A stretch of DNA of 64,000 nucleotides. Origin: a bacterium. GTDB lineage: Bacteria > Patescibacteriota > Microgenomatia > UBA1406 > GWC2-37-13. The translations under genes and the position numbers were made by a program. Of this stretch, positions 33,432-35,999 are shown piece by piece. Location of the stretch: the NCBI GenBank assembly GCA_029573715.1, contig JAKQDR010000172.1, positions 1 through 64,000 on the forward strand, given 5' to 3'. Each line of letters starts with the position of its first letter. Within the stretch, counting starts at the first letter, position 1. The notes beneath the pieces were generated by a model. The model was given only the letters and a program-made list of their open reading frames with translations, had not been told where the DNA came from and searched no databases.

Positions 33432-33710
33432 TTAGGGCGTATCTTTTGATATTCTCGCCCTGACTTCTTTGGAGAGCGCAAAGATAGATGTGTATATTTT
33501 TGGTATCCATTTTTTAAGCAGTGGTTCATTGCACTGCGCAAGTAGGCGCTGCATGACAGCTTCTTCACGCGCCTCATCAGTAAGCGGAGCTTGAGTTTGA
33601 TTTTTAATGCGTGCAGCTTCCTGCGCAAGCATCACGCGCTCCTGAAGAAGTTTAATAATGTGGTCATCCACATGGTCAATGCGGGTTCTGATTCCGTTAA
33701 GATCTCTCAT
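33432..33710 (-). CDS. Chorismate mutase, AroQ type
   Basis: 92 aa, all helical. LNGIRTRIDHVDDHIIKLLQERVMLAQ supplies the N-terminal Arg and Asp of the family, IKNQTQAPLTDEAREEAV the central Lys and helix 2. It converts chorismate to prephenate. It is the third gene of the Phe operon, 25 bases after prephenate dehydratase, so the two steps to phenylpyruvate are encoded next to each other but as separate proteins and not as the enterobacterial P-protein fusion. Confidence 0.92.
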   Translation of the reverse strand: MRDLNGIRTRIDHVDDHIIKLLQERVMLAQEAARIKNQTQAPLTDEAREEAVMQRLLAQCNEPLLKKWIPKIYTSIFALSKEVRARISKDTP

Positions 33711-33735: not shown

Positions 33736-34299
33736 CTACAATTGTTTTACCATATAGACAAAGCGCGTATAGTTTTGAAGCGTGTCCTCGATATTTTCGG
33801 CGACTACTTGAAGATCATACCACTGGCAAGCCTCCTTGCTTGCGATGGCTGCAATTGACACATCTTCAGCCGTTGCAATCATGTGTGCTGCGGTTGCAGT
33901 ATCATCACATTCTATCTGTCGTATCCACGGATAGCGCTTCAGAAAATGCTCACATTGCGCCAGTGCCTTAGGATGAGAATACACAGTGTGTATTTCTCTG
34001 ATTCTCTGTGTTTCACCTAAATTGCTTGGTTTTGCAAGGAGAAAATGCTCAACCTTAAGACGCTGCTCTCCCATAATGCGGACCGCTGAAGAACTAAGCA
34101 AATCAAGAGTTTCTTGGATGGGGCCTGCAAGGGTGTTTTTAATAGGCACCACACCAATATCCGCAATTCCCTCCTGCACCTCTTTGAAAATTTGTGCAAA
34201 TGTTGCACATCCCCTATAGGTATGATGTGCGCCATAGGCGCCATATGCGGCAATATAGCTAAATGACCAGGGTTTGCCTAAATATGCGATGATGCTCAT
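33736..34299 (-). CDS. pheA: Prephenate dehydratase without ACT domain
   Basis: 187 aa. Seen: IAYLGKPWSFSYIAA, GIADIGVVPIKNTLAG, VYSHPKALAQCEHFL, DDTATAAHM, and NIEDTLQNYTRFVYM with the Thr-Arg-Phe of the active site. It converts prephenate to phenylpyruvate. The usual C-terminal ACT domain that binds Phe for feedback inhibition is absent: the protein ends just after the TRF motif. The family's IENS reads IKNT here. Second gene of the operon under the Phe attenuator. Confidence 0.93.
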   Translation of the reverse strand: MSIIAYLGKPWSFSYIAAYGAYGAHHTYRGCATFAQIFKEVQEGIADIGVVPIKNTLAGPIQETLDLLSSSAVRIMGEQRLKVEHFLLAKPSNLGETQRIREIHTVYSHPKALAQCEHFLKRYPWIRQIECDDTATAAHMIATAEDVSIAAIASKEACQWYDLQVVAENIEDTLQNYTRFVYMVKQL

Positions 34300-34353: not shown

Positions 34354-35397
34354 TTACTCATAACCTTTAACTTCACGTAGCTTTTGTGGTCCATTTACAA
34401 CTGAGTGTGGATCCGCATCCGGTTGAACGAGTGGTCGCTCCCTCCCCACCGCCTCACATATTTTTGCCACTTCATCAACGGAAATGTGTTGCTGGGTGTC
34501 TGTCTCAGATGGCCCTGCCTCAATAAGCGCGCCATCATACGCATATCCGCTATCATCCGGCATGCGCATGAGCATCGCTTCTATTGTGGCATCGACAATT
34601 CTGTCACGTCTTTTGGGCCCCAAGCTATGCGAAGGGTCAAAGTATATGCGTGCCTGAGGATATCGCCGTTTGAGGCGGACTGCCGCGGCATGAAGTGGTG
34701 CATTACGATTTTTCCCCTTCCCCTCAACTTCTACACCACGCTGTATGAATACGTGTTTTTCAATTGGGAGGGCGGTCCAACTTTCAAGGTGTGCCCAAGT
34801 CTCCTCCATTGATGAGGTACGCGCATTTTGTGTGTCTTGAGCAGTGGCAAGCGGGCAATCCCCCAGCCATTTAGGGTTTTTAATACCCACCAACCAGCGC
34901 GGGTGCTTTGCTGCATATGCCCCCATGGTCATGTAGTGATGTCCAAGCGCATTCACCGATGGACCCCATATCATCACCGGTGCATGGCCAAGCATGCGTG
35001 AAAGTGGGGGGAGTTGTACATGAGGGTCACAAATTTCAGTTGTAATAGCGAGGCCGGTGCGCTCATAGATGGTGCCTGCCATAATCACACTGGGCGGAAT
35101 TTCGAGATGATTTGCAAATCCGCCCATAATTAGTGTTCTGGCATTTCGTTCATACGTATCCCAATCGATACCCATCCCATTACCGCTTGGATCACGCCTG
35201 CTTCGAGATTTAAGCCCTACATCGCGTGTCGCACATACACCATTCACCATCTCTCCATCTGGGTTACGCACCCTGATACGCGCAATGTCATATATTGCCT
35301 GCATACCCGCATCGCTTATCGAGCAGGGGCCCGCTATGATGGTGCACGGTGCATTTTGTATTTCTGTAAGCATATAGTGAAATGAATTTTTAACCAT
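34354..35397 (-). CDS. 3-deoxy-7-phosphoheptulonate (DAHP) synthase, divergent
   Basis: 347 aa. It has the DAHP/KDO8P synthase barrel landmarks: TIIAGPCSI, TTEICDP, WGPSVNALGHHYM, VGIKNPKWLGD, HVFIQRGVE, IYFDPSHSLGPKR and DGALIEAGPSETDTQQH. The family call is secure; DAHP rather than KDO8P synthase is chosen from context, since it heads an operon with chorismate mutase and prephenate dehydratase and is preceded by a Phe-codon attenuator. The sequence is clearly divergent from AroG and from type Ib enzymes. The ATG at 35397 lies two bases past the attenuator U-tract; Met9 is an alternative start. Confidence 0.85.
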   Translation of the reverse strand: MVKNSFHYMLTEIQNAPCTIIAGPCSISDAGMQAIYDIARIRVRNPDGEMVNGVCATRDVGLKSRSRRDPSGNGMGIDWDTYERNARTLIMGGFANHLEIPPSVIMAGTIYERTGLAITTEICDPHVQLPPLSRMLGHAPVMIWGPSVNALGHHYMTMGAYAAKHPRWLVGIKNPKWLGDCPLATAQDTQNARTSSMEETWAHLESWTALPIEKHVFIQRGVEVEGKGKNRNAPLHAAAVRLKRRYPQARIYFDPSHSLGPKRRDRIVDATIEAMLMRMPDDSGYAYDGALIEAGPSETDTQQHISVDEVAKICEAVGRERPLVQPDADPHSVVNGPQKLREVKGYE

Positions 35398-35399
35398 AC

Positions 35400-35424
35400 A
35401 AAAAACCCCGCCTTGCGGCGGGGT
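35400..35424 (-). terminator. Phe attenuator terminator hairpin
   Basis: Minus strand: ACCCCGCC, loop GCAA (GNRA), GGCGGGGT, then TTTTTT. This eight-base-pair perfect stem with U-tract ends two bases before the DAHP synthase ATG. As a terminator inside a 5' leader it makes sense only if conditional. Its 5' arm and loop (35411-35426) also pair with 35459-35474, the antiterminator. Confidence 0.95.
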
Positions 35425-35480
35425 GTGTATTGCTTTTGTTATGACGTTATGCCATAAGACACCTCACCGCAAGGTCGCGG
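35411..35480 (-). promoter_or_regulatory. Phe attenuator antiterminator and pause hairpin
   Basis: Segment 2 (35459-35474, CCTTGCGGTGAGGTGT) lies inside the leader ORF. It pairs with segment 3 (35411-35426, ACACCCCGCCGCAAGG) over 16 positions: 14 Watson-Crick, one G-U, one mismatch. Segment 3 overlaps the 5' arm of the terminator, so the two folds exclude each other. An early hairpin, CCGC with GCGG (35467-35480), competes with segment 2 from the other side. This is the classical 1:2, 2:3, 3:4 layout. Confidence 0.9.
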
Positions 35481-35515
35481 GTAAAGAAAAAAGTAAAGAA
35501 CTTTTGAGATGTCAT
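35447..35515 (-). CDS. pheL: Phe leader peptide, 22 aa
   Basis: A 22-codon ORF from ATG 35515 to TAA 35449-35447. Residues 6-11 are FFTFFF, so five of six consecutive codons are Phe (TTC TTT ACT TTT TTC TTT). Downstream codons run through antiterminator segment 2, and the stop lies just before the terminator. With low Phe-tRNA the ribosome stalls on the Phe codons, segment 2 pairs with segment 3, and the operon is read; with ample Phe-tRNA the ribosome reaches the stop, covers segment 2, and the terminator forms. Same logic as enterobacterial pheL, but the peptide is unrelated in sequence outside the Phe run. Confidence 0.92.
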   Translation of the reverse strand: MTSQKFFTFFFTRDLAVRCLMA

Positions 35516-35521
35516 AGGGGG

Positions 35522-35530
35522 ATTATAGCA
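35522..35530 (-). promoter_or_regulatory. pheL extended -10 promoter, leaderless
   Basis: Minus strand TGCTATAAT, then CCCCCT, then the leader-peptide ATG at 35515. With a start about seven bases past the -10, the first transcribed base would be the A of the ATG. No strong -35; the extended -10 would compensate. Confidence 0.8.
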
Positions 35531-35549: not shown

Positions 35550-35999
35550 TTAGATTGGGATTTCAAGAAATAAACTGAGAATAATGAGCCCTGATATTAT
35601 GATGCCAGAAATTATTGCATACAGAGTGTTTTGTATTGTCAATAATCTCTGTTGTCTGACTTTAAAAATAATGAAAAGGCTTATCGGCATAAGTAGTAAT
35701 TGTGAAAAAAGGCCTGGCGAATAATTACGCTGCATTATCGTGCTTACTATATGAAATATTCCGTTTGTAAAGATAAGTGCTTGCATTCCAGTAGAAAGGA
35801 ACACGCCCCAGGCTCTTTTTTTATATGTGCCGATTAAAATGAGAGAATATGGTATCAGAAGGGCGATATGAGAAATAATATACCAATTATTTGACGTAGT
35901 GCCAAAATATTCAGTGGCCCATTTGGGAAACCCAATAATATATTCCTCTGCAAAGTGCATCAAAACTGCGAGCTGTAAAATCGAGATTATTTTATGCAT
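35550..35999 (-). CDS. HXXEE-domain membrane protein
   Basis: 149 aa, about four membrane helices. The defining motif is in the first helix (LMHFAEEYIIGFPKW, H-x2-E-E), and NGIFHIVSTI followed by YSPGLFSQLLLMP fits the family's second conserved block. HXXEE proteins have no established function; the conserved residues suggest a metal site within the membrane. Its start overlaps the stop of the acetyl-CoA synthetase gene by eight bases, and its end is 20 bases before the pheL promoter. Confidence 0.75.
   Translation of the reverse strand: MHKIISILQLAVLMHFAEEYIIGFPKWATEYFGTTSNNWYIISHIALLIPYSLILIGTYKKRAWGVFLSTGMQALIFTNGIFHIVSTIMQRNYSPGLFSQLLLMPISLFIIFKVRQQRLLTIQNTLYAIISGIIISGLIILSLFLEIPI

Follow-up and report, generated by a model that had tools for sequence, protein, structure and literature searches.

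A 2010 survey gave Proteobacteria and Actinobacteria as the only groups in which leader-peptide systems had been demonstrated, and itself added the Firmicutes (PMC2965389). Among the described systems, the ilvBNC leader (ilvL) of Corynebacterium glutamicum is a near-leaderless leader peptide with attenuation: transcription starts one nucleotide from the start codon and no ribosome-binding site is present, and attenuation of the operon is experimentally supported (Morbach et al. 2000, as cited in PMC11857589). It differs from the element described here in serving branched-chain amino acids, in the operon that it controls, in its actinobacterial host and in a much longer leader region (292 bp). 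The phenylalanine leader of Proteobacteria (pheL; Rfam Phe_leader, RF01859) resembles our element in its Phe-rich leader peptide, its competing hairpins and its terminator before a phenylalanine-pathway gene, whereas the leader described here lacks a Shine-Dalgarno (SD) site, starts at the predicted transcription start and has an operon of DAHP synthase (DAHPS), prephenate dehydratase (PDT) and chorismate mutase (CM) behind it. T-box leaders (RF00230) are alike in that tRNA charging is sensed to control amino-acid operons, but unlike in that they bind the tRNA directly and have no leader ORF.

The element lies in a window (the whole stretch of DNA analyzed) of 64,000 nucleotides from a CPR genome, and is very probably a classical ribosome-mediated attenuator of the phenylalanine operon, read by a ribosome with a leaderless start. 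CPR bacteria are ultrasmall, uncultured or host-dependent, and little is known about their gene regulation; if our reading is true, they sense aminoacyl-tRNA through translating ribosomes. The initial annotation knew of no described amino-acid attenuator in this radiation, and the open-access full text of papers on CPR or Patescibacteria indeed yielded no relevant report of attenuators or leader peptides. While the kind of mechanism is known, its wide and conserved occurrence in the CPR and its conserved leaderless form appear to be new, and the finding is best reported, with good support, as a widespread aromatic attenuator of the CPR of which the window carries a Phe-only example.

Anatomy of the leader and its operon

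All features of the locus lie on the minus strand (Table 1), where the promoter, the 22-codon ORF with its FFTFFF run and the 16-position antiterminator of the initial annotation were recovered base for base. Five of the six codons at leader positions 6-11 encode Phe, clustering the pathway amino acid, and region 2 pairs with region 3 through 14 Watson-Crick pairs, one wobble and one A·C mismatch. The terminator arms read ACCCCGCC-GCAA-GGCGGGGT and are followed by the T-run, GT and the DAHPS ATG at 35397; the eight base pairs, GNRA loop and six U had thus been seen correctly, with the small correction that GT intervenes between the T-run and the DAHPS ATG and that the first T of the T-run is used in the eighth stem pair.

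Table 1. Coordinates of the leader element and of the genes behind it, as positions in the window.
Feature	Position	Strand	Remarks
Extended -10 promoter element TGCTATAAT	35522..35530	-	Ends 6 nt 5' of the leader ATG
Discriminator CCCCCT	35521-35516	-	Between TGCTATAAT and the leader ATG
Leader peptide ORF MTSQKFFTFFFTRDLAVRCLMA	35447..35515	-	22 codons; predicted leaderless
Phe control codons FFTFFF	35483..35500	-	Codons 6-11
Region 1	35505..35513	-	Forms a competing helix with the 3' part of region 2
Region 2 CCTTGCGGTGAGGTGT	35459..35474	-	Antiterminator 5' strand, within the leader ORF
Small linker hairpin	35439..35457	-	Predicted, around the leader stop codon; likewise in congener L024
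Region 3 ACACCCCGCCGCAAGG	35411..35426	-	Antiterminator 3' strand; overlaps the terminator 5' arm and loop
Intrinsic terminator	35400..35424	-	8-bp stem, GCAA loop, six-T run 35405-35400
DAHP synthase	34354..35397	-	First enzyme of the putatively controlled operon; 40-44% identity to family homologues
Prephenate dehydratase	33736..34299	-	PF00800, E 8e-57
Chorismate mutase type II	33432..33710	-	PF01817, E 1e-19

The genes downstream of the leader (DAHPS-PDT-CM) are structural genes of the same pathway, and the gene that follows the operon is convergent. The DAHP synthase has a weak match to DAHP_synth_1 (PF00793), below the cut-off, and keeps many invariant motifs. Its true start may be the ninth codon, an ATG at 35373 (window 35397-35373), because the homologous proteins start close to residue 13 of the ORF as listed. 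No gene for prephenate dehydrogenase (TyrA) was found in the window operon, and no match to PF02153 in its genome, which is incomplete (1.79 Mb, 92% complete). This genome had been called CPR-like from its sequence and does belong to the CPR, as its GyrA, encoded on this contig, shares 80-84% identity with that of a congener (G001, same genus); contamination of the contig was rejected on the same grounds.

Homologous leaders and their predicted start

A DAHPS alignment, run once against 84,980 species genomes, yielded 58 loci, and leaders were sought in the upstream regions and then in the upstream part of each operon; a scan of the ∼450 nt upstream of DAHPS missed leaders placed before the first gene of the operon, including that of the congener. 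We collected 36 leaders; 34 belong to CPR-type loci, and the records of the other two are labelled Elusimicrobia and delta-proteobacterium. In approximately 30 of the 39 CPR-type loci, at least one leader precedes either DAHPS itself or the gene that opens its operon, a count that includes two loci labelled merely 'bacterium' (L036 and L072), and the leader-bearing groups comprise Roizman-, Woese-, Levy-, Dojka-, Jackson- and Peregrinibacteria, among others. All 36 have a Phe/Tyr(/Trp) run with a terminator hairpin behind it, and nearly all matches of a looser scan lay upstream of the DAHPS operon, on the same strand. The leader of the congener (MTTQKYYYFYFTCRKAEWVAMA, locus L024) equals that of the window in ORF length, run position and predicted folds. 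The search of related genomes for conserved Phe runs, proposed along with the initial annotation, thus found Phe(/Tyr) runs in homologous operons, and the attenuator is widespread across the CPR and not the curiosity of one genome.

Good promoter-like sequences precede 34 of the 36 leaders. The -10 element ends 5-12 nt before the start codon in 31 of the 36 (mostly 6-9 nt), versus 11% of shuffles, and an SD-like motif is found in none of them. With the usual distance between -10 and +1, a spacing of 6 nt sets +1 at the A of the ATG. As the promoter-to-start distance is conserved, +1 is predicted to coincide with the leader start codon or to fall slightly upstream of it, which agrees with the initial placement of the leader ORF at the expected transcription start; for the window itself, TATAAT plus 6 nt and the lack of an SD motif predict a leaderless transcript. 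Ordinary genes, both in this genome and in a relative (G045), are likewise enriched for spacings of 4-11 nt, with the larger spacings of those genes as the reference (a reversed-sequence control gave too few ORFs), and SD-like motifs are rare upstream of genes in the two genomes (20 against 161 genes and 14 against 212 genes, respectively). Leaderless starts therefore look lineage-wide rather than an oddity of the attenuator. If the reading holds, the conserved start geometry opens two questions to direct test: whether transcription is coupled to translation in the CPR, and whether translation starts there on leaderless messages.

The most probable alternative keeps the attenuator but lets transcription begin at a promoter farther upstream, so that the leader ORF would follow a conventional 5' UTR and not be leaderless. 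The poor -35 of the window copy (3 of 6 consensus positions) would suit such a transcript, as would one leader (L066b) that follows another attenuator and lacks its own promoter. We nevertheless consider it unlikely, given the strong -10 elements close to the start of 31 leaders, the lack of SD motifs in all 36, and the enrichment of similar spacings at ordinary genes of this genome and its relative.

Pairing, ribosome position and competing explanations

MAFFT alignments misplace the GC-rich segments of these leaders, and instead of RNAalifold or pair counts on such alignments we used a swapped-partner test, in which each region 2 was duplexed with its own region 3 and with that of every other leader. 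The mean duplex energy was -19.8 kcal/mol with the own partner versus -14.2 kcal/mol with swapped ones (z = -11.2, with none of 20,000 permutations as good), and the CPR leaders alone gave z = -10.9. Regions 1 and 2 showed a weaker signal than regions 2 and 3 in the same comparison (1 of 20,000). Between the window and the congener leader (L024), approximately four antiterminator pairs have changed on both sides with the pairing kept, as read by inspection of the structures and with a one-base slide of the partner strand allowed. The covariation suggested at the outset for segments 35411-35426 and 35459-35474 is thus borne out as complementarity that each leader keeps within its own sequence, and the comparative evidence, at the level of sequence, strongly supports classical ribosome-mediated attenuation. 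Of the three outcomes that the initial annotation had named as refuting it, none was observed, the transcription start being judged by its predicted position.

The effect of a ribosome on the leader was modelled by masking its footprint, which reached 13 nt to the 5' side and 15 nt to the 3' side of the first nucleotide in the P-site codon, and folding the RNA as far as the terminator loop. In the window, the probability that the 5' arm of the terminator is sequestered was 0.87 with the ribosome stalled on any Phe codon, 0.18 with the ribosome at the stop codon (a result partly built in, as region 2 lies inside the ORF) and 0.68 without a ribosome. The corresponding means for 32 leaders were 0.81, 0.27 and 0.70, and sequestration in this footprint model was higher in the stalled than in the stop state in all 32, as attenuation demands. 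The antiterminator and the terminator are mutually exclusive, and region 2 is overlapped by the modelled ribosome at the stop codon. The ribosome-free model mostly keeps the antiterminator, though the complementarity of regions 1 and 2 is sequence-specific.

We propose a scheme in which the anatomy, its conservation, the sequence-specific complementarity and the footprint geometry come from computation, and in which start site, termination and response to tRNA are all predicted. Transcription would begin on the A of the leader ATG or no more than one base away from it, and a ribosome would load without an SD site and trail the RNA polymerase. When charged tRNA-Phe is scarce, this ribosome would stall on the FFTFFF codons and leave region 2 (nt 42-57 of the leader) free to capture the emerging region 3, which would block the terminator and allow DAHP synthase, prephenate dehydratase and chorismate mutase to be transcribed. 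When Phe is plentiful, the ribosome would reach the stop codon and cover the 3' half of region 2, upon which the terminator would form and transcription would end.

The codon content of the leaders bears on what is sensed. Every leader except that of the window mixes Phe and Tyr codons, sometimes with Trp, and the window leader alone is without Tyr. TyrA is often encoded in the operons of relatives, including that of the congener, in which it goes along with a YYYFYF leader run. One genome (G032) has no detectable TyrA and yet keeps two Tyr codons in its leader, so that the match between codons and pathway is a tendency and not a rule. The relatives appear to sense both Phe and Tyr, while the window leader has Phe codons alone, and the Phe/Tyr make-up of a leader may be taken as a readable sign of the aromatic branch that its operon serves.

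It is very improbable that the leader responds to a general slowdown of translation, or that it mainly feeds the next gene by reinitiation, instead of sensing Phe-tRNA. Leader ORFs close to genes can work by reinitiation (PMC4833913), but here the leader stop codon lies approximately 50 nt from the DAHPS ATG with the terminator in between, the control codons are aromatic, and the operons belong to the aromatic pathway in nearly all collected cases.

Several tests set the element apart from chance. The leader folds with a z-score of -4.67 and is more stable than all 200 of its shuffles; in a search for Phe-rich short ORFs followed by a terminator, the window element was the sole match in its 199.5-kb contig, and the contig yielded no match in 20 shuffles that preserved its dinucleotides. 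Of 5000 shuffled versions of region 2, 3 paired with region 3 as well as the real one does. These results, together with the leader's own promoter and the conservation across the CPR of Phe/Tyr runs, of complementarity between regions 2 and 3 and of position, leave hardly any room for a plain intrinsic terminator that would serve the upstream HXXEE-family gene and follow a short ORF by chance, without regulation, even though this gene is co-directional and ends at 35550. Least probable of all, to the point of being negligible, is control of the operon by a metabolite riboswitch or a T-box: a weak T-box-like element does precede trpE in a relative (L091), but at the window locus no Rfam family reached its cut-off, the best weak match being Phe_leader (29 bits and E 0.0039, versus a cut-off of 55 bits), and RF00230 was absent among the covariance-model matches with E up to 10.

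Leaders before trpE and variation among the aromatic operons

Beyond ribosome-mediated attenuation of the window operon, it is an even call whether leaderless or near-leaderless leader-peptide attenuation is how the CPR in general exert amino-acid control, possibly as an ancestral trait. Such a mode would span aromatic operons in many CPR subgroups and trp operons in Microgenomates, and would imply close coupling of transcription and translation on SD-less messages in reduced cells. At four trpE loci of Microgenomates relatives (L082, L085, L088 and L089), trpE is directly preceded by a short ORF that contains Trp codons and by a terminator; these leaders differ from the window leader in carrying Trp instead of Phe/Tyr codons and in a leaderless start that is less clear. 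These candidate trp attenuators are located at 438-559 on the reverse strand of L082, at L085:1308-1430 and on the reverse strand of L088 and L089, with ORFs such as MNIQQMEIAIWQSWQTLKEDLL and MINQIQLIHQLSLNSWRAICWRVDLWPN. A TrpR-like gene seemingly lies upstream of several of them, as read by eye. A search for histidine leaders upstream of hisD gave nothing convincing.

Other trpE loci carry T-box-like elements: the one at L091:1102-1386 scored 32 bits to RF00230, short of the cut-off of 93, and those upstream of trpE in L083 and L087 are T-box-like by the GGTGGCACC motif alone.

The aromatic operons themselves vary between the attenuator and DAHPS. A PfkB-family kinase gene occupies this position in many CPR operons; it was confirmed by Pfam in L042:2573-3517 and L038:2428-3393, and similar ORFs are found at the same position in L030, L035, L036, L044, L047, L051, L059, L063, L071, L072 and L079. 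In L027 the place of the kinase is taken by a transaldolase/FSA gene. A multi-hairpin element lies between the attenuator and DAHPS in L010:628-745, L067:3377-3500 and L066:3238-3345; it was considered as a second regulator and rejected, as its core recurs elsewhere in the L010 genome, and it is probably a dispersed repeat.

Some loci differ in the number or the placement of their leaders. Tandem aromatic leader-terminator elements precede DAHPS in L066 (3122-3236 and 3357-3474), and two such elements are found before different genes in L056 (606-721 and 3362-3479). In L070 (3342-3420) and L073 (labelled Rickettsiales), a short ORF ending in FYFYFYI lies before DAHPS with no clear terminator seen, possibly a different attenuation design. 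Finally, a Dojkabacteria locus (L077:4491-4610) carries a leader with the run NYFFFYFF and a terminator downstream of DAHPS, where it precedes a 450-aa gene without a Pfam match.
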